A stretch of DNA of 64,000 bases from positions 1-64,000 of the forward strand of contig NZ_JOIU01000012.1 of NCBI RefSeq assembly GCF_000720135.1, written 5' to 3'. The stretch's first letter is position 1; each line of letters opens with the position of its first letter. Below the pieces are notes generated by a model that was given only the letters and a program-made list of their open reading frames with translations, was not told the origin of the DNA and made no database searches. The translations under genes and the position numbers were made by a program. This DNA is from Streptomyces sp. NRRL S-1022 (GTDB lineage: Bacteria > Actinomycetota > Actinomycetes > Streptomycetales > Streptomycetaceae). This document shows, piece after piece, positions 19,980-32,268 of this stretch.

Positions 19980-20414
19980 CTACCCGCCTGCGGGCAGATC
20001 GGTGCGCGGGGCGGTGCCCAGATGCACGCCGACCCGCTTGACCAGGAGCGTCATCTCGTAGGCGACCTGTCCGACGTCGGAGTCTGCGTCCGAGAGGACG
20101 GCGAGGCAGCTGCCGTCCCCGGCGGCGGTGACGAAGAGGAAGGCGTCGTCCAGTTCGACCACCGTCTGGCGGACGCTGCCCGCCTCGAAATGGCGGCCCA
20201 CACCCTTGGCCAGGCTGTGGAAGCCGGACGCCACTGCGGCCAGATGCTCGCTGTCCTCCCTGGTCAGGTCCTTGGACACCCCCGTCGGCAGTCCGTCGCC
20301 GGACAGGATGACGGCCTTGCGGATGCTGGCGACCCGGTCGACCAGGTCGTCCAGGAGCCAGTTCAGCTCGCCGTTGTTCGTCGCCGTGTGGCCGGTCGCC
20401 TTCGGTGCGGTCAT
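19980..20414 (-). CDS. cvnB: Conservon roadblock/LC7-domain protein CvnB
   Basis: This 144-residue protein consists of a roadblock/LC7 fold (LNWLLDDLVDRVASIRKAVILSGDGLPTG through ...EMTLLVKRVGVHLG). Proteins of this fold act as scaffolds or activators for small GTPases such as CvnD. The start at 20414 overlaps the cvnA stop by four bases (ATGA), so translation is coupled. Length and position are typical of cvnB. Confidence 0.94.
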   Translation of the reverse strand: MTAPKATGHTATNNGELNWLLDDLVDRVASIRKAVILSGDGLPTGVSKDLTREDSEHLAAVASGFHSLAKGVGRHFEAGSVRQTVVELDDAFLFVTAAGDGSCLAVLSDADSDVGQVAYEMTLLVKRVGVHLGTAPRTDLPAGG

Positions 20415-23218
20415 CGACCGTCCCCCTTAGTCGTTCCTCGTGCTGTGCCGTTACGGGCCCCGTCGCCCTCGGCGTTCTCCTCCCGGCCGCGCTGCCAGCC
20501 GCGCTGGAGCGAGGCCATCCGGCTGCGGACCTCCTCGGCATCGCGGTCGGCGGGCGTCTCCGCTCGCCCGGCGCGCCGGGCGTTGTCCTGCTTGAGCTGG
20601 GGGGCCAGGTTCGCCTGGCGTACCCGCCGGGGCAGCGGCCCGACGCCCGGTTCGGGGGCGTCACCGGCAGGTGCCGTGGTGTCGCCGCGAGGCATGTCCG
20701 CCGGACCGGTGGCGTCGGGCGCCCCGGGACGGGTGCGCCTGGGCAGTACCGGCGTCCCGGGTGCCGCCCCGGCGCTCTCCACCGGGGTCGCGGCGCGGTC
20801 CTCGGCCCGGTCGGTGCGTTCGGTGGGACGCCGGGAGGCGCCCCCGCGACGGCGGGCGGGCAGCGGGGCCAGTCCGCCCGGGTCGGAGCGGCGCGGTCCG
20901 GCGGAGGGGCCGGGGTCCGGTTCGCCGCGGCGGGGCCGCTGGTCGCTGACGGGCTTGCCGTGCGAGCTGACCAGCTTGGGCGTCTGCCGCCGCGGCAGGG
21001 ATACGGGTCCGAGGTCGCCGGTCCCTTCGCGCGACAGCCGGTCGGCCGCCCCGGTGGCTTCCTGTCCCTCGTCCTCCGGCTGGGGCCGGCGGGGGCGGAA
21101 CAGACCGCCCCGCTCGCTGTCCTCGTCCGGGAGGGCGCCGGGGAAGCCGTCCAGCGCGTCGAGGTCGACGGGCGCCTCCAGCTCGACCGGGCCGTCCAGC
21201 AGGGAGGTAGGCACGCCGGGCAGCTGCAGCGGTGCCGGGGACCGTCCGCCGGCGCGGCCCACGGTCTCGGTGCCCTTCGCCGAGCGGTCCCGGTCGAGCC
21301 GGAAGCCGATGCCGTTGGTGTCCGGGACGTCGTCGGTCAGCAGCGCGTCGGGGATGAACACCACGGCGGTGGTGCCGCCGTACGGCGACGGCTGGAGGGA
21401 CACCCGCACGTTCTGGCGCTGGGCGAGACGGCTGACCACGAACAGACCGAGCCGGTCGGTGTCGGAGAGTTCGAACTCGGGGGTCTCGGCGAGGCGCAGG
21501 TTGGCGTCGAGGAGAGCCTCGGCCGTCATGCCGAGACCCCGGTCGTGGATCTCCAGGGTGAAGCCGTTGGCCACGCGCTCGCCGAGGACCTGGACGGCGG
21601 TGTGCGGCGGCGAGAAGACGGTGGCGTTCTCAAGGAGTTCGGCCACGAGATGGGTCAGGTCGGCGACGGCGGGCCCGGTGACGGCGACCCGCGGCAGACG
21701 CCGGACCTCGATGCGCTCGTAGTCCTCGACCTCGGCGACGGCGGCGCGGACGATGTCCATCAACTGCACGGGCCGGCGCCACTGCCGGGAGGGCGCGGCA
21801 CCGGAGAGGATCACCAGGCCCTCCGCGTGCCGGCGCATACGGGTGGTGAGGTGGTCCAGGCGGAACAGGTCGGCGAGTTCGTCGGTGTCCTCGGTGCGGC
21901 GCTCCATGCTGTCCAGCAGCGTCAGCTGCTTGTGCAGCAGGACCTGGCTGCGGCGGGCGAGGTTGACGAAGACCTCGGAGACACCGGCGCGCAGCTCGGC
22001 CTGCTTGACGGCGGCCTCGACCGCGGCGCGCTGGAGGGTGTTGAGGGCCTGCCCGACCTCGCCGATCTCGTTCTTGTCGTACTCCAGGCGCGGTACCTCG
22101 GTCTCGACGTCGACCTGTTCCCCCGCGGACAGCCGGCGCATCACGCTGGGCAGCCGGACGCCGGACGCCTCGTGGGCCTCCAGCCGCAGCTGGCGCAGGT
22201 CGCGGATCAGGGTGCGGCCGACCCGGATGGAGAGCACGACGGACAGCAGCAGCGCGACCAGTCCGAGGACGCCCGCGACGGCGGCCTCCGCGATGACCTC
22301 CACGGCGACGGGACGCATGTGGTCCTGGAAACGGTCGCCCACCTGGTCGTCCAGGGTGCCGAGTTCCTTCAGGACGGACGCCGCGGCGGAGTCCCAGCTC
22401 TGCGCGGTGACACCGCGGGGCGTGCCGGACTCCCACGAGGTGACGGAGCGTTCGGCCACCCGCAGCGGCGCCGTGGTGGCGTTCTTCCAGAAGTGGTCGT
22501 AGCGTTCGCGCTCCCCCGCGGGCAGCAGCGGCAGGCTGATGTCGTACAGCAGGGTGCGCTGGGCGACGAGGTCGGAGATCTCGCGGGTCTCGTCGCGGGT
22601 GAGCCGGCCGACGACGAGGGAGGAGCCGAGCAGGGCGTCCTCGCGCGAGAGCAGCTCGCGGGCACGGGTGATGCTGACCAGGGCGCGGGCCTGCTTGTCG
22701 ATCTCGACGTCGTCGATACCGTCGAGGGACGCGAGGAGCGCGAAGCAGGGGTCGACGAGGCGGTTGTACTGGTAGAACGCCTGGGCCCGGGTGACGGTGC
22801 CCTGCTCGACGCCGCGGCGCAGCGAGTCGAGGCCGCCGAGGGCGTCCAGCACGGCGGTCAGGTGCTCGTTGTCGTCCCCGTCCATGCCCGACCGGAGGTC
22901 ACCGTCCTTGGCGTTCGCGCGGAAGGCGGTGATCGCCCGGTCGGTGGCGGTGCGGGTGCGGTGCAGTGCCGAGAGGGCCTCGGAGGCCCGCCGGTCGGCG
23001 AGGTAGACGAGGGTCTGCCTGCGCTCCTGCTGCAGGACGCGGACGGTATCCTCGGCCGGGTAGCCGATGTCCTGGACCACGTCGGTCACGCGGAACAGCC
23101 GGGCGACCTCGCGGCCCGTGAGCACCGTGGCGAAGCCCCAGACAGCGGTCAGGGACACCAGCGGCACGAGAAGCAGCGCCACGATCTTCCGGCGGATCGA
23201 CTTCCCGCGAAAGCGCAT
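20411..23218 (-). CDS. cvnA: Conservon sensor histidine kinase-like protein CvnA
   Basis: This is a 935-residue membrane sensor. A first helix at about 10-30 (IVALLLVPLVSLTAVWGFA) and a second near 305-325 (AVAGVLGLVALLLSVVLSI) bracket a large extracytoplasmic NIT-type domain rich in Arg and Asp. A HAMP region and dimerisation helices follow, then an HATPase domain with VAELLENATVFSPP (N box), DRGLGM (G1) and SDTDRLGLFVVSRLA. The last 300 residues are Pro/Arg/Asp-rich and look disordered. The conserved phospho-acceptor His of ordinary kinases is not obvious, as in other CvnA proteins. It heads the operon, and about 420 bases upstream should hold the promoter. Confidence 0.94.
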   Translation of the reverse strand: MRFRGKSIRRKIVALLLVPLVSLTAVWGFATVLTGREVARLFRVTDVVQDIGYPAEDTVRVLQQERRQTLVYLADRRASEALSALHRTRTATDRAITAFRANAKDGDLRSGMDGDDNEHLTAVLDALGGLDSLRRGVEQGTVTRAQAFYQYNRLVDPCFALLASLDGIDDVEIDKQARALVSITRARELLSREDALLGSSLVVGRLTRDETREISDLVAQRTLLYDISLPLLPAGERERYDHFWKNATTAPLRVAERSVTSWESGTPRGVTAQSWDSAAASVLKELGTLDDQVGDRFQDHMRPVAVEVIAEAAVAGVLGLVALLLSVVLSIRVGRTLIRDLRQLRLEAHEASGVRLPSVMRRLSAGEQVDVETEVPRLEYDKNEIGEVGQALNTLQRAAVEAAVKQAELRAGVSEVFVNLARRSQVLLHKQLTLLDSMERRTEDTDELADLFRLDHLTTRMRRHAEGLVILSGAAPSRQWRRPVQLMDIVRAAVAEVEDYERIEVRRLPRVAVTGPAVADLTHLVAELLENATVFSPPHTAVQVLGERVANGFTLEIHDRGLGMTAEALLDANLRLAETPEFELSDTDRLGLFVVSRLAQRQNVRVSLQPSPYGGTTAVVFIPDALLTDDVPDTNGIGFRLDRDRSAKGTETVGRAGGRSPAPLQLPGVPTSLLDGPVELEAPVDLDALDGFPGALPDEDSERGGLFRPRRPQPEDEGQEATGAADRLSREGTGDLGPVSLPRRQTPKLVSSHGKPVSDQRPRRGEPDPGPSAGPRRSDPGGLAPLPARRRGGASRRPTERTDRAEDRAATPVESAGAAPGTPVLPRRTRPGAPDATGPADMPRGDTTAPAGDAPEPGVGPLPRRVRQANLAPQLKQDNARRAGRAETPADRDAEEVRSRMASLQRGWQRGREENAEGDGARNGTARGTTKGDGR

Positions 23219-23635: not shown

Positions 23636-24172
23636 GTGATGGGCACGGCGGAGCGGCGCAAGGCGCCCGAGGAGAGCGTGGCGGAACGCTCGCAGGCGGG
23701 GCGGGGCCGGAGGGCGCCGGATCACGACATTCCGGTGCACAGGCACAGGGGGATGTCCGTCGGTGACGAACAGCGGCAGGACTACCAGCCGTTGTGGGTG
23801 GAAGAGCCCGCGCGGCGGCACCCGATGCCCGATCCGGTGCGTACAGCGGCGGTGCGGGCGGTCCTTGTCATAGCGGTGACGCTGATCCAGGCGATGGTCG
23901 CGTTCCTGTGCACGCTGGCCGGGTCCTGGCTGGCGTTCCCCATGGTGATCAGCAGCGTGGCGAGCACGGTGGCGGCCACCTGGGCCGTGGTCGACGTGTG
24001 GGTGACCCGCCAGGTGTGGAGCCAGCGGTACGGCGTGGTCTCCGAGCCGAGCAGCACGGCCCGGGCCCTCCGCCGGGAGCGGCGGGCCCGTCGGCGGCAG
24101 GACCGGGCGAGCGTGCGGGAACAGGAGCGGATACGCCGCAGGGGCGGCGCCGGTCAGCTGTCGCACTCCTGA
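23636..24172 (+). CDS. Small two-helix membrane protein of unknown function
   Basis: This 178-residue protein has a charged N-terminal half (about 90 residues) and two adjacent membrane helices (AVRAVLVIAVTLIQAMVAFL, then FPMVISSVASTVAATWAVVDV). The tail is very basic (RALRRERRARRRQDRAS...). I do not recognise a family. GTG 23636 is chosen because GGGGAG lies seven bases upstream; the internal ATG at MSVGDEQRQ is a weaker option because its G-run abuts the codon. It is divergent from cvnA and convergent with the condensin-like operon. Lipid- or DNA-binding through the basic tail is only a guess. Confidence 0.7.
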   Translation: MMGTAERRKAPEESVAERSQAGRGRRAPDHDIPVHRHRGMSVGDEQRQDYQPLWVEEPARRHPMPDPVRTAAVRAVLVIAVTLIQAMVAFLCTLAGSWLAFPMVISSVASTVAATWAVVDVWVTRQVWSQRYGVVSEPSSTARALRRERRARRRQDRASVREQERIRRRGGAGQLSHS

Positions 24173-24289: not shown

Positions 24290-27200
24290 CTACGCCGGCT
24301 TCTTGTACATCCTCGTCGCCGTGATCTCGCTGTGCACCGTCTCTCCGGCCCGGGGCGGCTGGGGCAGTCCGGGCCTGAGGTGTTCCTCCACGCTGATGTA
24401 CTTCAGGCCCGCCCGCAGGTCGGCGTCGTTGCGCAGGCGGATGACCAGCGGGAACTCGGCGAGGGCGGTGGTGTCGAACAGGCCGGTGGTGTACAGCAGC
24501 TGGACGCCCAGCGCGTCGGAGACGGCCCGCTGGAGTTCCAGCAGGTAGGTCGCGTTGGCGCGGCCGATCGGGTTGTCCAGGAACAGCGTGCCGGCGTACC
24601 GGTGCTTGTCCCGCCCCCGGTCGTTCGAGCGCAGCGAGGCCATCGTGCAGTACAGGGCGATGGCGGCGGTGAGCAGCTGACCGCCAGAGAACACATCGCC
24701 CATCTGCCCGACGGGCACACGCTCGGCCCGCAGGACGGCGTCGGGCTTGAGGATCTCGACGGCCACGCCCTTCGGCTGCAGGGCCGCCGCGACGCCCCGC
24801 AGCAGCAGGGACATGCCGTCGCGGCGCAGGTCGGAGTTCTTCTTGACGGCCGCGCGCGTGGCCTCGTCGATGACCTCGCCGAGCCGTTCGGTCAGCGTGG
24901 CCTGGTCGGGCTCCTCGAAGCGGATGCGCAGGAACTCCTGCCCGGACCACTCGCCGAGCCCCTCGGGCAGCCGGGAGAGCCGCTGGGCGGAGCGCAGGGT
25001 GGCGAGCGCCGACTCCACGAGTCCGCGCAGCCGGTCCACGATCGAGTCGCGGTTGCGCTCCAGCTGGGCCAGCTCGTCGGTCAGGACCCGCAGCCGGGGC
25101 GCGAACGCGTCCGCCCACTTCTGGGCGTGCTCGGGCAGCGCGGAGGCGGGCAGTTCGCGGATCTGCTGCCGGGCCGGGGTGCGCACCTGCTCGTAGCGCG
25201 TGGAGTTGGCGTGCCGGACCAGGACGTCGCTCGCCTCGCGTACGGCCGTCTCGGCGGCGGACAGGTCGGCGGCGCAGCCGCGCAGCGAGCGGCGGGCCTC
25301 GGCGGCGGAGTGCCGGGCCTCCTCCAGGGTGCCCGGGTACGGCTCCGTCTCCTCCTGCTCCTCCTCGGCGGTGTGTTCGCGCAGCAGGTCGCGGAGCATC
25401 GCGGCGATCTCGTCGAAGCCGCCGGCCGCTTCCTCGGCCGCGCGGTGGGCGTCCAGCAGTTCGGCGTGCGCCTCGCGGGCCTCGGCCAGCGCCTCGGTGC
25501 GGGCGGTGAGTTCGGCCGTGGCGGTGCGCAGCAGCGCCTGGGCGTGCTCGGCGTCGCGCGGGACGAGGTCCTCGGACAGCTCGGTGTGGGCCTCGCCGTC
25601 CTCGGGCGCGTGCCGCTCGGCCTCGCCGCGCAGCCGGCCGAGCTGCTCGCTCGCGGTCGACACCCGGGTCTCCAGGAGCTGCACCAGCTCCTCCGCGCGC
25701 GCGGCGGCGGCCTGCCGGGAAGGCCCGTCGGAGCCGTCGGGCGACTGGAGCAGCTGCTCGGCGCGGGTGCGGACCTTGTTGCTGAGCCGGTCCAGTTCGG
25801 CGCGGGCGGCGCTCTCGTCGCTCTCCGCGCGGGCCTGCTCGGCGCGCAGGTCGGCGCCGACACCGACCTTCTCGTACACCTGGGAGGCGGCCCGGTATGC
25901 CTCGCGGAGGGCGGGCAGGGACGCCTTCGGGGCGTCGTCGGCGGCGGGTACGTCGTCGGGGGCGCCGGCGATCTCGGCGCGCTCGGCGCGCAGGGCCCGG
26001 GCGGTGCGGCGGGCGTCGTCGGCGGCGCGCTGGGCGGCGCGGCGGTCCTCGTCGGCGGCGCGGGCGCGTTCCAGGCAGGTCTGGGCGCGGGCCTCGGACT
26101 CGGCGGCCTCGTCGGCGAGTTCGCGGAGCTTCACCTGCCAGGCGGCGCGCTCGCGCAGCCGGAAGGCGAGGCCGGCGAGGGCGTCGGCGGCGCGCCGGGC
26201 CTTCTGCGCGGTCTCCTGCCGTTCGTCGCGGATCTGCGTGGCCTCGGCGGCGGCCTCGTCGGTCTCCACGCGCGTGGTGCGGGCCTCGGCGAGTTCCGCC
26301 TCGGCCTCCTGGGCGAAGACGCGGGCCTCCTCGGCGGCCCGGGCCAGCTCGGTGAGGCGGCCGGCGGGGCAGCCGGTGCGCCAGGAGGTGAGCCGTGCGG
26401 CGAGTTCGCGGTCCTTGCCGAGGCGGGCGGCGAGGGCGCGGATCTCGTCGTCGCGCTCGGTGGCCCGCGCGCGCAGCGCCTGGCGTTCCTCGTCGGCGGC
26501 GTGCTCGTCGTGCATGGCCGGGTTCGGCGGCACCAGGAACACGTCACCGGCGGCGGTGCCCGCGGCCGGGGGCGGGGCGAGCAGCGCCGCGGCGGTGCCG
26601 ACGGCGACGGCGGAACGGGGCAGCAGGGCGGCGTCACCGAGGGCCTCGCGGGCCCGCGCGTGTGTGTCCGGGTCGGTGATGATCACACCGTCGACCAGTT
26701 CGGGGCGGGCCGCGAGCACGCGCGCGTGGTCGGCGGGGTCGACGGCCTGCGCGAGGTAGCGCCAGCCGGGCAGGGCCGGGATGCCGTGCTCGCCGAGGAA
26801 CTCGACGGTGGCCAGCACGTCCGGGCCGGGCGGCAGCAGTCCGCCGTCACCGAGGGCGCCGAGGATGCGGGCGTCGTCGGCGGCGGCCGTCCGCAGGTCG
26901 AACAGGTGCCGTTCGGCGCTCGACACGGCCGCGTCGAGGAGTTCGCGCAACTCGTCGGCGAAGCGGTCGAGTTCCTCGGAGGTGAGGACGCCCTGGGCGC
27001 TGCCGGAGGCCGGTGCGCGCGTGCCGTCGGACCCTTCCGTCCGGGGCGCGGGCACCCGTGCCGTGCCGGGCGCGCCCGGCAGGCTGAGCAGCTCCGCGAG
27101 CCGTTCCTCGGCGGCCAGCGACTCCGCGAGGCGCCGCTCGGCCTCGTGGGCGCGCTCGGCGGCGGTCGCCGCGTCCGCGGCGCGGGCCGCGGTCAGTTCC

Positions 27201-28918
27201 GCGCGGGACTCGGCGGAGGCCGCCTCGCGCGCGTGCTCGGTGGCCTTGCGGGCGGCCTCGCGGGCCGCGTCCCAGGCGGCGACGGCGGTCTTCTCGGCGT
27301 CGCTGGCGGCGAGCGCGGCCCGCGCCGGGTCGGCGTCCGGGGCGCTGTCGTCCAGCCAGCCCGCGCGGACGGCCTCGGCGGTCTCCTGCTCGACCTCGGC
27401 CAGCCGCTGGCGCAGGTGCCCGGCCTCGCTGCGGGCCCGCTGCGCCTCGGTGGCGGCGGCGGTGGAGTCGCGGTAGGCGGAGTCGCTGACCTCCTGGAGG
27501 GCGGCGGAGCGCTCCTCCTCCTCGTTGGCGAGGGACTCGGCACTGCCCGCGGCGGCGTGCAGGGCCCGTACGAGGTCCACGGCGGCCTTGGCGCGGGCGG
27601 CGAGCGCGGGCGCCGCGTCCCGTTCGGCCTCCTGGATGGCGGCGGACACGCGCGCGACGCGGTCGGCGGCGGCGCGGTGGCGCAGCACGGCCTCGGCGGC
27701 CTGCCAGGCGGAGTGCAGGGTGCGGGCGTCGGCCAGCTCGCGCTTCTGCGCGGCGGCGGACTTCTCGGCGGCGGCGAGCGCGAGGGAGGCGTGCCGGTAG
27801 GCGAGTTCGGCGGCGATGAGGGAGCTGCGCTCGCGGGCGCCCTCGGAGTGCGTGACGGCGTACGCGGCGGCCGTCACGCGCTGGGCGAGGTCGGCGGCCC
27901 GGATCCGCTCCCGCACGGCCCGCGCGGACAGCCGCCGGGCCAGCGTGCGGGTGCGGCGCTCGGCGCCCGCGTGGATGTCACGCGCGCGTGCACGCGCTTC
28001 GGCGGCCTCCACGATGCGGCCGAGCAGGTCGACGGAGCCGGCGGTGAAGTCCCGTTCGGCGATCAGCTCGGCGCGCCGGCCGAGTTTGCTGCCGAAGCCG
28101 CTGACGAGGTCGGCGAGGCCGTCGGTGTCGCGGGTGTCGGTGACCGCGCGCAGCAGCAGGTCGGTGAAGTCGGAGTCCTTCTTGACCGCGAAGAGGCCGG
28201 CCGCCTCGCCCTCGTCGGCGTTCATCTCGCGCTGGTAGCGGAAGAGTTCGGGGTCGAGGCCGAGGTCGCCGAGGTGCTCGGTCCAGCGCTCGTGGATCTC
28301 CTCCCAGTGCACCTCCAGGTGCGGGTAGGCCTTGCCGGCCTCCATGAGGGCGTCGCGGAAGCCCTTCATGGTGCGGCGGCGGCCCTGCGCGCCCGAGGAG
28401 CCCTCGACGGGCGGCCGTACGGCGGTGGACTCGGCGACGGGCAGGTTGTCCAGGCTGAGGCCGGGGCCGGGGCGGAAGGAGTACCAGGCCTCGGCGAACT
28501 TGCGCGGGTCGTTGGAGACCTGCCGTCCGCGCCACTCGCTGACCTTGCCGACGACGACGCACTCGCCGGTCAGCACGTGCTGCCATTCCAGGGCCACGTG
28601 GCCGCAGTCGTCGGCGAGCAGGAACTTGCGCAGCACGCCGGAGCTGGCGCCGCCGAGGGTGTTGCGGTGGCCCGGCAGCATCACCGAGAAGATCAGCTTG
28701 AGCAGGACGGACTTGCCGCCGCCGTTCTCCAGGAACAGCACGCCCGCGGGCGCGGGCCGGCGCGGCGGACCGGACGGCTCGTCCTCGAAGAACTCCGCCT
28801 GCGTGGGCGCCGGGTCGGGCACGGGCTGGCCGACTCCCCGCAGGTCCAGCACGGTGTCGGCGTAGCGCGCACCGGCGGGACCGATGGAGTAGAGGCGGAC
28901 CCGGGACAGCTCGTACAT
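24290..28918 (-). CDS. Giant SMC/MukB/JetC-like coiled-coil ATPase
   Basis: This 1542-residue protein has the build of an SMC-type condensin ATPase. The Walker A motif FLENGGGKSVLL is at 62-73. Long Ala/Glu/Arg coiled coils span roughly 300-660 and 800-1330 around a globular hinge-like insert (about 680-790, ILGALGDGGLLPPG...). The C-terminal head has signature FSGGQ (1410-1414) and Walker B GTLFLDNP with Asp1448. Position 1449, normally the catalytic Glu, is Asn. It is last in an operon after kite-like and kleisin-like genes, as in MukBEF, MksBEF and Wadjet sets. No JetD/MksG nuclease gene follows; the next gene is convergent. Function, chromosome organisation or plasmid restriction, is inference. 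Confidence 0.85.
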   Translation of the reverse strand: MYELSRVRLYSIGPAGARYADTVLDLRGVGQPVPDPAPTQAEFFEDEPSGPPRRPAPAGVLFLENGGGKSVLLKLIFSVMLPGHRNTLGGASSGVLRKFLLADDCGHVALEWQHVLTGECVVVGKVSEWRGRQVSNDPRKFAEAWYSFRPGPGLSLDNLPVAESTAVRPPVEGSSGAQGRRRTMKGFRDALMEAGKAYPHLEVHWEEIHERWTEHLGDLGLDPELFRYQREMNADEGEAAGLFAVKKDSDFTDLLLRAVTDTRDTDGLADLVSGFGSKLGRRAELIAERDFTAGSVDLLGRIVEAAEARARARDIHAGAERRTRTLARRLSARAVRERIRAADLAQRVTAAAYAVTHSEGARERSSLIAAELAYRHASLALAAAEKSAAAQKRELADARTLHSAWQAAEAVLRHRAAADRVARVSAAIQEAERDAAPALAARAKAAVDLVRALHAAAGSAESLANEEEERSAALQEVSDSAYRDSTAAATEAQRARSEAGHLRQRLAEVEQETAEAVRAGWLDDSAPDADPARAALAASDAEKTAVAAWDAAREAARKATEHAREAASAESRAELTAARAADAATAAERAHEAERRLAESLAAEERLAELLSLPGAPGTARVPAPRTEGSDGTRAPASGSAQGVLTSEELDRFADELRELLDAAVSSAERHLFDLRTAAADDARILGALGDGGLLPPGPDVLATVEFLGEHGIPALPGWRYLAQAVDPADHARVLAARPELVDGVIITDPDTHARAREALGDAALLPRSAVAVGTAAALLAPPPAAGTAAGDVFLVPPNPAMHDEHAADEERQALRARATERDDEIRALAARLGKDRELAARLTSWRTGCPAGRLTELARAAEEARVFAQEAEAELAEARTTRVETDEAAAEATQIRDERQETAQKARRAADALAGLAFRLRERAAWQVKLRELADEAAESEARAQTCLERARAADEDRRAAQRAADDARRTARALRAERAEIAGAPDDVPAADDAPKASLPALREAYRAASQVYEKVGVGADLRAEQARAESDESAARAELDRLSNKVRTRAEQLLQSPDGSDGPSRQAAAARAEELVQLLETRVSTASEQLGRLRGEAERHAPEDGEAHTELSEDLVPRDAEHAQALLRTATAELTARTEALAEAREAHAELLDAHRAAEEAAGGFDEIAAMLRDLLREHTAEEEQEETEPYPGTLEEARHSAAEARRSLRGCAADLSAAETAVREASDVLVRHANSTRYEQVRTPARQQIRELPASALPEHAQKWADAFAPRLRVLTDELAQLERNRDSIVDRLRGLVESALATLRSAQRLSRLPEGLGEWSGQEFLRIRFEEPDQATLTERLGEVIDEATRAAVKKNSDLRRDGMSLLLRGVAAALQPKGVAVEILKPDAVLRAERVPVGQMGDVFSGGQLLTAAIALYCTMASLRSNDRGRDKHRYAGTLFLDNPIGRANATYLLELQRAVSDALGVQLLYTTGLFDTTALAEFPLVIRLRNDADLRAGLKYISVEEHLRPGLPQPPRAGETVHSEITATRMYKKPA

Positions 28919-28988
28919 GGCGGACTCTCGTAAGTCTGGTGAAAAGTGCGGTGGTTCAGGGGTTCCTGGAGCTGCGGGGCTCCAGGCG

Positions 28989-29867
28989 TCAGGAGTGGAA
29001 CGGCAGCCCGGCGTCGGCCACCAGGTCCAGGTCGTCGGTGTCCTCGGCGGGCAGCAGGGTGGCCGTGCCGTCGGTGACCGGGACGACGCCCAGCTCCAGC
29101 AGCTCGGCCAGGGCGGCGCTGCCGGCCATGTCGCGGACCTGGAGCTGGTAGCGGGCGGTGGTGCGGTACGTGCCGCCGCTGTCGTCGCCGGTGCGCTGCA
29201 GGAAGCCGGAGTCGGTGAGGAAGGCGAGGGCCTTCGCCACGATGCCGGTGGTGGAGGCGGCCGGCCGGCGGGCGTCCTTGGTGGCGCCGGTGGCGCTGCG
29301 TCTGGCCCAGATCCGCCAGGCGGCCTCCAGGCCGGGCGCGTCGGTCGCCGGGTCGGTGTTCTCGCCCTGTTCCTCGGCGCGCTCCTCCAGGCGGCGGCAG
29401 GCCTGCCGCACGAAGGCGTCGACGCCGTTGACGGTGACCCGGCCGATGTAGGAGTCGTCGGCGAGGTCCTCGGGGCGCGGGAACGCCAGCGCGGCGACCG
29501 CCAGATGAGCCAGTCCGTGCAGGAAGCGGTCGGCGGAGTCGGCGGCGGTGCGACGCGCGTAGTCCCCCATACGGACCGCGAAGACGGAGTCCTCGGCCGC
29601 GGTCACGGCCATGCCCGCGCGGGGGGACACCTCCAGCACGACGAGCCCGAGGCCGGCGGCGACGGCGTCCGCGAGCCGGGCGAACGCCGGGTTCTCGCGG
29701 TAGCGGCGCAGCAGTTCGGTGTACTCCTGGTCGCGCGCGGGCGCCAGCTTGGGCTGGAGTCCGAAGGCGACGAGCCGCGCCGCGTCGGCGGCGTCGGCGG
29801 GGGTGACGGCGGAGCCCGCCGGCGCGGCGGCAGGCTCGGGTTCACTCCGGTCGACGTGCTCGGTCAC
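28989..29867 (-). CDS. MukE/MksE/JetB-like (kite) subunit of the condensin operon
   Basis: This 292-residue acidic protein is predicted to be the winged-helix kite partner of the SMC-like ATPase. Helical and winged-helix-like blocks are visible: YTELLRRYRENPAFARLADAVA early, and IVAKALAFLTDSGFLQR followed by a beta hairpin (GGTYRTTARYQLQVRDMAG) late. The call rests mainly on position and size between a kleisin-like and an SMC-like gene, which is the universal order in MukF-E-B and JetA-B-C. GTG 29867 has AAGGAG eight bases upstream. It lies 31 bases after the kleisin-like gene and 70 bases before the ATPase gene. Confidence 0.7.
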   Translation of the reverse strand: MTEHVDRSEPEPAAAPAGSAVTPADAADAARLVAFGLQPKLAPARDQEYTELLRRYRENPAFARLADAVAAGLGLVVLEVSPRAGMAVTAAEDSVFAVRMGDYARRTAADSADRFLHGLAHLAVAALAFPRPEDLADDSYIGRVTVNGVDAFVRQACRRLEERAEEQGENTDPATDAPGLEAAWRIWARRSATGATKDARRPAASTTGIVAKALAFLTDSGFLQRTGDDSGGTYRTTARYQLQVRDMAGSAALAELLELGVVPVTDGTATLLPAEDTDDLDLVADAGLPFHS

Positions 29868-29898
29868 GGGCTGGGCTCCTTGTCGTGCTGTGGTCCAC

Positions 29899-31428
29899 TC
29901 ATGCTGCTTCCGTCCGGTCCGCGGCCATGCCGGCCGCGTCCAGCAGGGCGGTCCCCACGATCAGGTCCGCCCCGCCGAACTCGGGATCGTCCAGTTCGGT
30001 GCCGTCGTCCACGGCGAACAGCAGCTTCCCCTCGCCCTGCCGGTAGGCGGTGCCGACGGCCGGGCTGGCCGCGTGGACGGCCAGCAGCGCCACCAGGTAC
30101 GCCAGGTCCGGGTCACCGGTCCGCCGGGCCTCGGCGAGCAGCCCGGACAGTCTGCGCGGGGCGTCAGCCGGCAGGTCGAGCAGCTCCGTCGCGGCGGCCA
30201 GCTGCTCCTCGCTGAACCGGCTGTCGTCCGGCGTGGCGATCAGGTCGGGTTCGGGCATCTCGGCGCCCAGGTGCTCGCGCTCGACGGGCGGGGTCAGCAG
30301 GATGTCGACGAGGTCCCCGACCCGGACGGACACCGGTGTGCGCAGTCCCGTGCCGCGCGCGAAGAAGGCGTCCGTCACCCGGATCGCCTGCTCCAGGGGC
30401 AGCGGCAGGACGGGGGCGACGAGATGGCCGTAGAGGTCTATCCCGGAGGTGGTCGCGGGTGTGGCGAAGGCCTGCCGGTCCTGCTCGGCGCGGAACAGCG
30501 GGCCGGCCTCCAGCAGGCGGGACTGGAGCTGGGTGTGGCGCCGGATGCAGTCCTTGACGATGTCGACCAGTTCGGCGGCGCGGCGCTTGTGCTCGGGCTC
30601 CTCGGTCTCGTCGCGGGCCTTGCGGATGTTGGTGAGGATGGCGTTCTCGTGGCGGTACCGCTCGGCGACGTGGTCCAGGGCCTCGGCGATCATGTCGGGG
30701 ACGGCGTTGAGCCAGTCGACCGCGCGGACGTTGCGCCGGGTGGCGTCCAGGGCGCGGCGGAGCGTCTCGGAGTACTGCACCGTGCGGTAGCGGGCCTGCT
30801 CGGCGGCGAGCTGGGCGTCGGCGAGCCGGCCGCGGCTGATCAGCACCTCCAGCTTGACCTCGGCGGCGATCTGGGCGCTGGTGACGTCGGTGTCCAGGGC
30901 GCCGACCAGGACGTTGACCGCCTCGTCGGTCGTGCGCAGGTACACCGTGCCGCCGGGGCCGGGTACCTCCTCGATCAGCTTGAAGTCGTAGTCACGGCGG
31001 ACGTAGGTGCCGTCCGGCGCGAAGGTGCCGTACACCGCGCGGAAGCCGCGGTCCACGCTGCCGACGTTGATGAGGTTCTCCAGGACCCAGCGGGCCACCC
31101 GCTCGTGTTCGGCGGTGGGCCGGTGCGGGGCCTGGGCGGCGATGCGCGGGATCAGCCGGGCCACGATCTGCTCGTGGTCGGCGCCGGTGTCGAAGTCCAT
31201 GTTCAGCGTGACCAGGTCGATGGCGGCCAGCGCCACCTCGGCCATCCCGTACACCGAGTACTCGCCGGCCAGGTTGGCCTTGCGGGCGTCCAGGTCGTGC
31301 AGCGGCGCGGTGCAGGCGAGCGCGCGCAGCCGGCGCGCCAGCCCCTCGTCGGCGGCCGGACCCGGAGCCGGGCGCGGCCCCGCGCTGAGCTGGGGCGGAA
31401 CGCGGTCCGTCGATGCAGGCGAAGTCAC
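29899..31428 (-). CDS. MukF/MksF/JetA-like (kleisin) subunit of the condensin operon
   Basis: This protein of about 509 residues opens the condensin-like operon. It has a helical N-terminal region (GMAEVALAAIDLVTLNMDF), long central helices with Arg/Glu heptads (IAEALDHVAERYRHENAIL, then HKRRAAELVDIVKDCIRRHT), and a C-terminal region (VSVRVGDLVDILLTPPVERE). This is consistent with a kleisin that bridges SMC heads, but I cannot align it to a named family. Start choice is uncertain: GTG 31428 has TAGTCT seven bases upstream, which would suit a leaderless transcript. GTG 31491 and ATG 31458 are longer in-frame options without good ribosome sites. A GntR gene ends 132 bases upstream on the same strand. 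Confidence 0.7.
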   Translation of the reverse strand: MTSPASTDRVPPQLSAGPRPAPGPAADEGLARRLRALACTAPLHDLDARKANLAGEYSVYGMAEVALAAIDLVTLNMDFDTGADHEQIVARLIPRIAAQAPHRPTAEHERVARWVLENLINVGSVDRGFRAVYGTFAPDGTYVRRDYDFKLIEEVPGPGGTVYLRTTDEAVNVLVGALDTDVTSAQIAAEVKLEVLISRGRLADAQLAAEQARYRTVQYSETLRRALDATRRNVRAVDWLNAVPDMIAEALDHVAERYRHENAILTNIRKARDETEEPEHKRRAAELVDIVKDCIRRHTQLQSRLLEAGPLFRAEQDRQAFATPATTSGIDLYGHLVAPVLPLPLEQAIRVTDAFFARGTGLRTPVSVRVGDLVDILLTPPVEREHLGAEMPEPDLIATPDDSRFSEEQLAAATELLDLPADAPRRLSGLLAEARRTGDPDLAYLVALLAVHAASPAVGTAYRQGEGKLLFAVDDGTELDDPEFGGADLIVGTALLDAAGMAADRTEAA

Positions 31429-31510: not shown

Positions 31511-31568
31511 GCCGAAGCTCACAGGAGGCGCCGCCGAAGCGCAGGAGGCCCCGCCGAAGCTCAGGAGG
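31511..31568. repeat. Three short tandem repeats, about 20-22 bp
   Basis: The pattern GCCGAAGC followed by AGGAGG recurs at 31511-31528, 31533-31548 and 31553-31568. The third copy overlaps the GntR stop codon at 31561-31563. The repeats lie just upstream of the condensin-like operon. Confidence 0.7.
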
Positions 31569-32268
31569 TGCCCGCCGGATCCTCGCCGACCCGGCGCCGG
31601 TACACCTCGACGACCCGCTCCAGGGAGTCCGTGAGGTACGTCTCCAGCTGCCGTTCCGCGCCGCGCCGGTCGCCCGCCTGCAGGGCCTGCAGGATCCGGG
31701 CGTTGCGGGCGAGGTAGGGCTCGTGCAGGCGGCGCGGGTCGTCCACGACGTGGAAGGCGAGGCGCAGCTCGGCGAAGACGCTGCGCATCAGCTCGTCGGT
31801 GCGCTCGCTGCCGGCCAGGGCCACCAGTTCCCGGTGGAAGTGGATGTTGGCCGTACCCAGCTCTTTCCAGTCGTTCTCCGCGGCCGCCGTCCGCCCGTCC
31901 TCGACCGCGGCGACCAGTCCGCCGAGCCGGTACGGCGGTGCGCCCAGCCCGCGTACGACGGCGCACTCGACCAGGGAGCGTGTGCGGTAGATGTCCTCCA
32001 CGTCCTCGACGGTCAGGACCCGCACGAACACCCCGCGGTTGAGCTCGTGGACCAGCAGGCGCTCGTGGGTGAGCAGCCGGAACGCCTCGCGCAGCGTGTT
32101 GCGGGAGACACCGAGCGCCCCTCCGATGCCGTCCTCCGACAGCCGGGTGCCGGGCGGGAAGTAGCCCTCGGAGATGCGGCTCCTGAGGATGTCCGAAACC
32201 CGTTCCGCGGTGCTCGTACGGCCCAGGAGGACACGGTCGCCGGCCAGTCCCGTCAGCTGCTCTGCCAT
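31561..32268 (-). CDS. GntR/FadR-family (FCD) transcriptional regulator
   Basis: This 235-residue regulator has an N-terminal winged helix (RISEGYFPPGTRLSEDGIGGALGVSRNTLREAFRLLTHERLL) and a C-terminal all-helical FCD ligand domain. The FCD metal-binding residues are suggested by the HFHRELVALAGS and NARILQAL segments. It starts at ATG 32268 and is divergent from the MFS-pxpABC operon across 127 bases that hold a perfect palindrome. It is thus the likely local repressor of 5-oxoproline uptake and cleavage, with an organic acid as ligand. The FCD subfamily commonly controls carboxylate catabolism, which fits. Confidence 0.92.
   Translation of the reverse strand: MAEQLTGLAGDRVLLGRTSTAERVSDILRSRISEGYFPPGTRLSEDGIGGALGVSRNTLREAFRLLTHERLLVHELNRGVFVRVLTVEDVEDIYRTRSLVECAVVRGLGAPPYRLGGLVAAVEDGRTAAAENDWKELGTANIHFHRELVALAGSERTDELMRSVFAELRLAFHVVDDPRRLHEPYLARNARILQALQAGDRRGAERQLETYLTDSLERVVEVYRRRVGEDPAGTS

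Follow-up and report, generated by a model that had tools for sequence, protein, structure and literature searches.

The kleisin-kite-SMC operon

The DNA analysed here, called the window below, is the stretch of 64,000 nucleotides at positions 1 to 64,000 of contig NZ_JOIU01000012.1 of Streptomyces sp. NRRL S-1022. It carries on its minus strand, at 24290..31428, an operon of three genes for a putative condensin-like complex. The first gene, which starts with GTG, encodes a kleisin resembling JetA3 and MukF (29899..31428; 509 aa) and is followed after 31 bases by a gene for a JetB/MukE-like kite protein (28989..29867; 292 aa) and, after a further 70 bases, by a gene for a JetC3-like SMC ATPase (24290..28918; 1542 aa) with intact Walker A (LENGGGKS), signature (FSGGQ) and Walker B (LFLDNPIG) motifs. 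A previous annotation made from the nucleotides alone (hereafter the sequence-only reading) had proposed a kleisin-kite-SMC operon at this place, and all three open reading frames (ORFs) are indeed there on that strand. The same gene order on a single strand was observed in 98 of the 99 loci that we scored with one set of profiles, 25 of which carry the nuclease gene JetD; the exception, L094, ends at a contig edge.

Sequence comparisons confirm that the operon encodes a condensin-like set of the type III Wadjet lineage, free of the nuclease. The SMC protein matches the PADLOC model for JetC3 of type III Wadjet (PDLC00588) with 1415 bits and the kleisin matches the corresponding JetA3 model (PDLC00567) with 626 bits, so that the suggestion of an undescribed family, also made in the sequence-only reading, can be abandoned. 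The kite has no PADLOC match by sequence; it shares 33-50% identity with its counterparts at eight JetD-bearing loci, and its predicted fold is JetB/MukE-like. MukF and MukE are among the best-ranked matches of the predicted kleisin and kite structures, with modest scores, and the assignment of these two proteins, which earlier relied mostly on gene position, is now backed by these predictions. Searches of Pfam and NCBIfam, in which no dedicated Mks profile was used, gave no significant family for any of the three proteins, and sequence searches against solved structures with a kite profile, a kleisin profile and the SMC protein returned nothing meaningful.

Membership in the SMC-ScpAB system was considered and excluded: the Pfam families SMC_N and ScpA have no significant match in the three proteins, and the canonical copies sit on other contigs. 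Because the same genome thus encodes canonical SMC and ScpA (ScpB was not searched for), the complex is a candidate second loop extruder, as had been proposed. The Walker A, signature and Walker B motifs are also present in all 12 congeners compared. On a wider scale, Walker A and Walker B were found in 70 of the 70 loci with the SMC heads in one ORF (71 loci have both heads), the signature being located correctly by our search pattern in only 52 of these 70. The LDN variant of Walker B, as opposed to LDE, could have indicated an inactive ATPase; this idea was dropped because all eight JetD-bearing relatives compared carry LDN, so that the variant is uninformative for this set.

Search for the JetD nuclease

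Wadjet systems couple JetABC, which extrudes DNA, with JetD, which cuts the DNA once extrusion is complete. The sequence-only reading had seen no nuclease partner beside the operon, and this observation extends to the whole host genome, in which neither of two JetD models (JetD_C and JetD3) has a single match. Among 150 Streptomyces genomes, JetD3 matches occur in 21 (above 100 bits in 11 of these) and JetD_C matches in 18. A JetD recognisable with either model is present in 22 genomes and missing from the other 128, so that the nuclease does not accompany the operon in every host. In each of the 11 genomes whose JetD3 match is strong, JetD adjoins a second, divergent JetABC (L039-L046 and L103-L105), whose best SMC segment is just 26-39% identical to the SMC of the window.

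At the locus itself, no JetD was found in any of 33 Streptomycetaceae loci (those of our genome search plus the window), all of which extend 3.4 kb or more past the SMC gene, nor in 80 named Streptomyces loci, the best 80 of a larger number, of which 65 have full flanks and 71 contain the SMC C-terminal head. The JetD profile used on the 99 loci was built from 11 seeds and recovered the 25 JetD loci and no others; the one used on the 80 named loci was built from all 25 JetD loci and therefore provides no independent control. Within the JetD-less loci, tblastn with JetD proteins as queries detected no remnant at E < 0.01. JetD was likewise not found at the loci of single-contig genomes (L048, L051-L053 and L055-L058).

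The position expected for JetD is occupied in the window by a small gene on the plus strand (about 23756..24172), for which no Pfam family was matched. The sequence-only reading had described it as convergent, which is correct, and as encoding a two-helix membrane protein; Kyte-Doolittle windows give one clear hydrophobic stretch and a weaker one. A relative of this gene lies 3′ of the SMC gene in 26 of the 33 Streptomycetaceae loci, and in 21 of the 33 it is convergent and no more than 1.5 kb away.

Some further JetABC and JetD loci deserve mention. In a Pseudonocardiaceae genome, a deep-branching JetABC (L138; G538 C7:9800-23500) has no JetD that we could find, and a 467-aa ORF follows its SMC gene. 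The Streptomyces genome G090 has a JetD-bearing Wadjet near both chromosome ends (C1:11107-16697 and C1:9222617-9228027; L045), as if in a terminal inverted repeat, with a nearly full JetD match at one end and a shorter one at the other. A JetD_C match also lies about 34 kb from both ends of C1 in the Streptomyces chromosomes of G049 and G129, again in a terminal-repeat-like arrangement.

Distribution of the locus and history of JetD

The JetC3 model matches 147 of 150 Streptomyces genomes, and the JetA3 model 100 of 101 Streptomycetaceae genomes from 17 of 17 genera, G695 being the single genome of the 101 with no JetA3 match. A kleisin match at the level of the window was obtained in 99 of the 101, three of them fragmentary or split (G663, G694 and G701); the only copy in G641, the sole representative of its genus, is a distant one with JetD (L147). 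A class-wide draw of 394 genomes yielded JetA3 in 61, namely 40 Streptomyces, 19 Frankiaceae, one member of the Pseudonocardiaceae and one weak match. The Frankiaceae and, through G509, the Pseudonocardiaceae were recognised by the names given to closely similar proteins. On plasmids, kleisin matches are limited to five among 72,556 records, all less than 60% identical, and JetD stands immediately 3′ of the SMC gene in four of the four such records that were read.

The history of JetD was followed on a tree of 95 loci built from the kleisin, the kite and the SMC heads; L047, L094, L105 and L148 were dropped for a short or broken kleisin or kite. The 31 JetD-less Streptomycetaceae loci, including the window, form a single clade with a Shimodaira-Hasegawa-like approximate likelihood ratio test (SH-aLRT) support of 100, 12 JetD-less Frankiaceae loci form a separate clade, and the Pseudonocardiaceae are mixed. 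The presence and absence of JetD on this tree requires at least seven gains or losses, a number whose exact value is uncertain because the tree was made quickly, under a simple model, and contains long branches. L102, whose contig stops inside the SMC gene, was left out of the count, and the JetD state is less certain for L098, whose contig ends 94 bases past the SMC gene, and for the deep-branching L138. Grouping of all JetD-less loci in a single clade was rejected by the approximately unbiased (AU) test (p-AU 5.6e-42 with 69 rows, and 1.7e-5 with 68 rows after removal of L136); L102 and L138 were left out of both tests, whose groups were named after inspection of the tree.

A natural comparison is offered by two congeners, one with JetD (L131 in G583) and one without (L136 in G615). 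Their loci align at 80-85% identity through most of JetABC and once more on its far side, with no alignment over the JetD interval or over two short stretches in other places. JetD is also present at L141 and L130, which neighbour this pair on the tree, so that the state of L136 is best read as a loss. In the lineage of the window, JetD was probably lost before the Streptomycetaceae diversified.

The remaining components are under purifying selection. The ratio of non-synonymous to synonymous substitution rates (dN/dS) between the window and four congeners ranges from 0.048 to 0.144 in 16 comparisons covering the kleisin, the kite and two SMC-head segments; eight further pairs were compared, and the three that belong to this clade gave 0.055 to 0.324. 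Such values, well below 1, indicate that the kleisin, the kite and the SMC heads are maintained and not decaying. We also sought residues lost together with JetD, using columns conserved among 17 JetD-bearing relatives. Five of the 103 SMC-head columns are changed in Streptomycetaceae (4/47 in one segment and 1/56 in the other), and no clear signal of joint loss was obtained in the kleisin, the kite or the SMC heads.

The surroundings of the operon are conserved as well. Its syntenic upstream neighbour, in the same direction, is a gene for a regulator with Pfam GntR and FCD domains (31561..32268, minus strand), which may belong to the operon. This gene is present in all 65 named Streptomyces loci with full flanks, and a LamB/YcsF gene, also found upstream of the set in the window, in 55 of the 65; a divergent upstream ORF looks transporter-like by eye. 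Downstream, past the small convergent gene, a gene for a NIT-domain histidine-kinase-like protein is followed by two small conserved genes (20411-23218 in the window), which together we take to be a conservon. The NIT-kinase gene lies close to the operon in 38 of the 65 full-flank loci. In Pseudonocardiaceae, a motif recognised by eye as the N-terminus of GAPDH was seen 0.2-5.1 kb 3′ of the SMC gene at 17 of 32 loci, among them L101, L111, L112, L121, L124, L132 and L133, one of the 17 (L124) with JetD; the Pseudonocardiaceae set thus also sits by a housekeeping site.

Proposed role as an accessory condensin

We favour, with moderate confidence, the explanation that the operon encodes the JetABC part of a type III Wadjet which, after loss of the nuclease, was kept at a conserved position of the chromosome to serve as an accessory condensin. 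In such a complex, the two SMC heads would bind ATP and the kleisin would bridge them, a kite dimer would help to hold DNA and the motor would extrude DNA loops, extrusion ending without cleavage for want of JetD. Without cleavage, the host chromosome could serve as substrate, the complex working alongside SMC-ScpAB in the manner of Pseudomonas aeruginosa MksBEF; having lost its DNA-cutting part, the machine would probably fold the chromosome of its own cell. We infer that the Streptomyces set extrudes loops, with the host chromosome as presumed substrate and, by analogy, an accessory chromosomal condensin as its most likely identity. A fuller scenario of domestication, which seems to us about evenly poised, is that the nuclease of a type III Wadjet was lost before the Streptomycetaceae diversified and that the remainder turned into a second chromosome-folding condensin, near-universal in this family of mycelial bacteria, whose chromosomes are linear, the JetD losses of Frankiaceae and Pseudonocardiaceae being separate events.

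Among known systems, the set shares with type III Wadjet (JetABCD) the kleisin and SMC models, the kleisin-kite-SMC order and the LDNP variant of Walker B, but it is without JetD and near-universal in its family rather than patchy. Like MksBEF of P. aeruginosa, it is a nuclease-free kleisin-kite-SMC set encoded beside SMC-ScpAB. The accessible part of PMC10586767 reports that MksBEF contributes to chromosome organisation and proposes it to be JetABCD minus JetD, likely arisen by loss of the latter; according to that of PMC7485682, the P. aeruginosa chromosome is organised by MksBEF as well as by SMC, and both guide its segregation. The Streptomyces set differs from MksBEF in belonging to the actinobacterial type III lineage, with no Mks or Muk match in Pfam or NCBIfam, and the chromosomal role reported for the former would extend to it by analogy. 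MksBEFG/EptABCD of Corynebacterium and Mycobacterium is likewise an actinobacterial Wadjet-like operon, but it includes the nuclease MksG/JetD, the executing part according to the available text of PMC10123090, which is missing from the Streptomyces set. MukBEF resembles it in the predicted kleisin and kite folds, for which MukF and MukE are among the best matches; sequence similarity between the two is undetectable, and MukBEF replaces SMC-ScpAB in enterobacteria, whereas both kinds of complex are encoded here.

Several observations weigh against an accessory condensin. Outside the Streptomycetaceae, JetA3 is found in 31 of 100 Pseudonocardiaceae and 19 of 35 Frankiaceae genomes, a patchier distribution than expected of a housekeeping function. 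In 32 single-contig Streptomyces genomes, the locus lies in the outer chromosome, at a median of 15.6% of the length from an end and within 25% of it in 28 of the 32 (several lengths being rounded), and the outer regions of Streptomyces chromosomes hold many dispensable genes. This patchiness and outer position would suit a dispensable or immune function as well. Moreover, none of the conserved columns of the kleisin (0/94) or of the kite (0/50) is changed in Streptomycetaceae; with such columns nearly all kept, there is no clear erosion of a JetD interface. Finally, no Foldseek match of the kleisin or kite model reaches E < 0.001.

The main rival, which we regard as unlikely, is a nuclease-free anti-plasmid or anti-phage system that would extrude and compact small circular DNA, silencing it or blocking its segregation. 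Such a function is consistent with the homology to a plasmid-restricting family and with the retention, in kleisin and kite, of residues that are conserved in the JetD-bearing relatives, and the repeated loss of JetD with JetABC kept fits a residual immune role; PMC10586767, in its accessible part, mentions an SMC complex that compacts circular DNA and prevents viral gene expression. It is harder to reconcile with the near-universal and syntenic occurrence of the set, unlike that of the patchy JetD-bearing copies (strong JetD3 in 11/150 genomes), and with identified neighbours that are metabolic and regulatory genes. An improbable alternative is a JetABC working with an unlinked effector, which could be a JetD encoded at another place or an unrelated nuclease of the TOPRIM or another type, as in the plasmid sensor imagined in the sequence-only reading. 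The conserved kleisin and kite positions would agree with this, but the host genome and 128 of the 150 Streptomyces genomes match neither JetD model, and the JetD of each strong-JetD3 genome stands beside another JetABC; besides the set itself, no gene common to Streptomyces and Frankiaceae was found in five loci compared, and no search aimed at nucleases other than JetD was made. That the operon is a decaying, functionless relic of Wadjet is very improbable: one defining gene is gone and the kleisin is split or fragmentary in a few genomes, but the low dN/dS, the Walker A and B motifs intact at 70/70 loci and the near-universal retention argue against decay. It is hardly credible that a nuclease was overlooked through assembly gaps or extreme divergence, even with many draft assemblies, a divergent JetD and the 467-aa ORF of L138, since JetD is equally missing from single-contig genomes, the 11-seed profile hit 25 of 99 loci with no remnant seen by tblastn in the rest, and a convergent gene follows within 1.5 kb at 21 of 33 Streptomycetaceae loci.

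Studies of Streptomyces chromosome folding have centred on SMC, ParB and HupS. No second Streptomyces condensin appears in the accessible portions of two such studies (PMC8410768 and PMC13121528), one of which cites mycobacterial MksB in its references. PMC10482375 counts Wadjet among the defence systems and describes its enrichment towards the ends of Streptomyces chromosomes; JetD is not named in the part of its text that was available. An assignment of the S. coelicolor genes of this set to SCO1631-SCO1634 was dropped, since two papers give SCO1631 as HelY and place SCO1632 and SCO1633 in a table of Tat genes. We found no paper joining Streptomyces, MksB and Wadjet in the open-access literature, and none of the open-access titles and abstract beginnings listed by our searches concerns a JetD-less JetABC in Streptomyces. 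It is known already that PADLOC recognises the components, and the passage from nuclease loss to condensin has been published for another lineage; a JetD-less type III set in nearly all Streptomycetaceae was not found in the open literature searched.

When type III Wadjet genes of Streptomyces are counted, JetD-bearing sets should be kept apart from nuclease-free ones. If the accessory-condensin explanation is true, the complex would be an extra player for Hi-C and smc-deletion studies of Streptomyces to consider. The hypothesis that condensins arise from defence systems by nuclease loss, as for MksBEF, would also become directly testable, because nuclease-bearing and nuclease-free forms are closely related here, in one case as congeners (L131 and L136). 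Such pairs would reveal how the SMC proteins of defence systems evolve into organisers of the chromosome.

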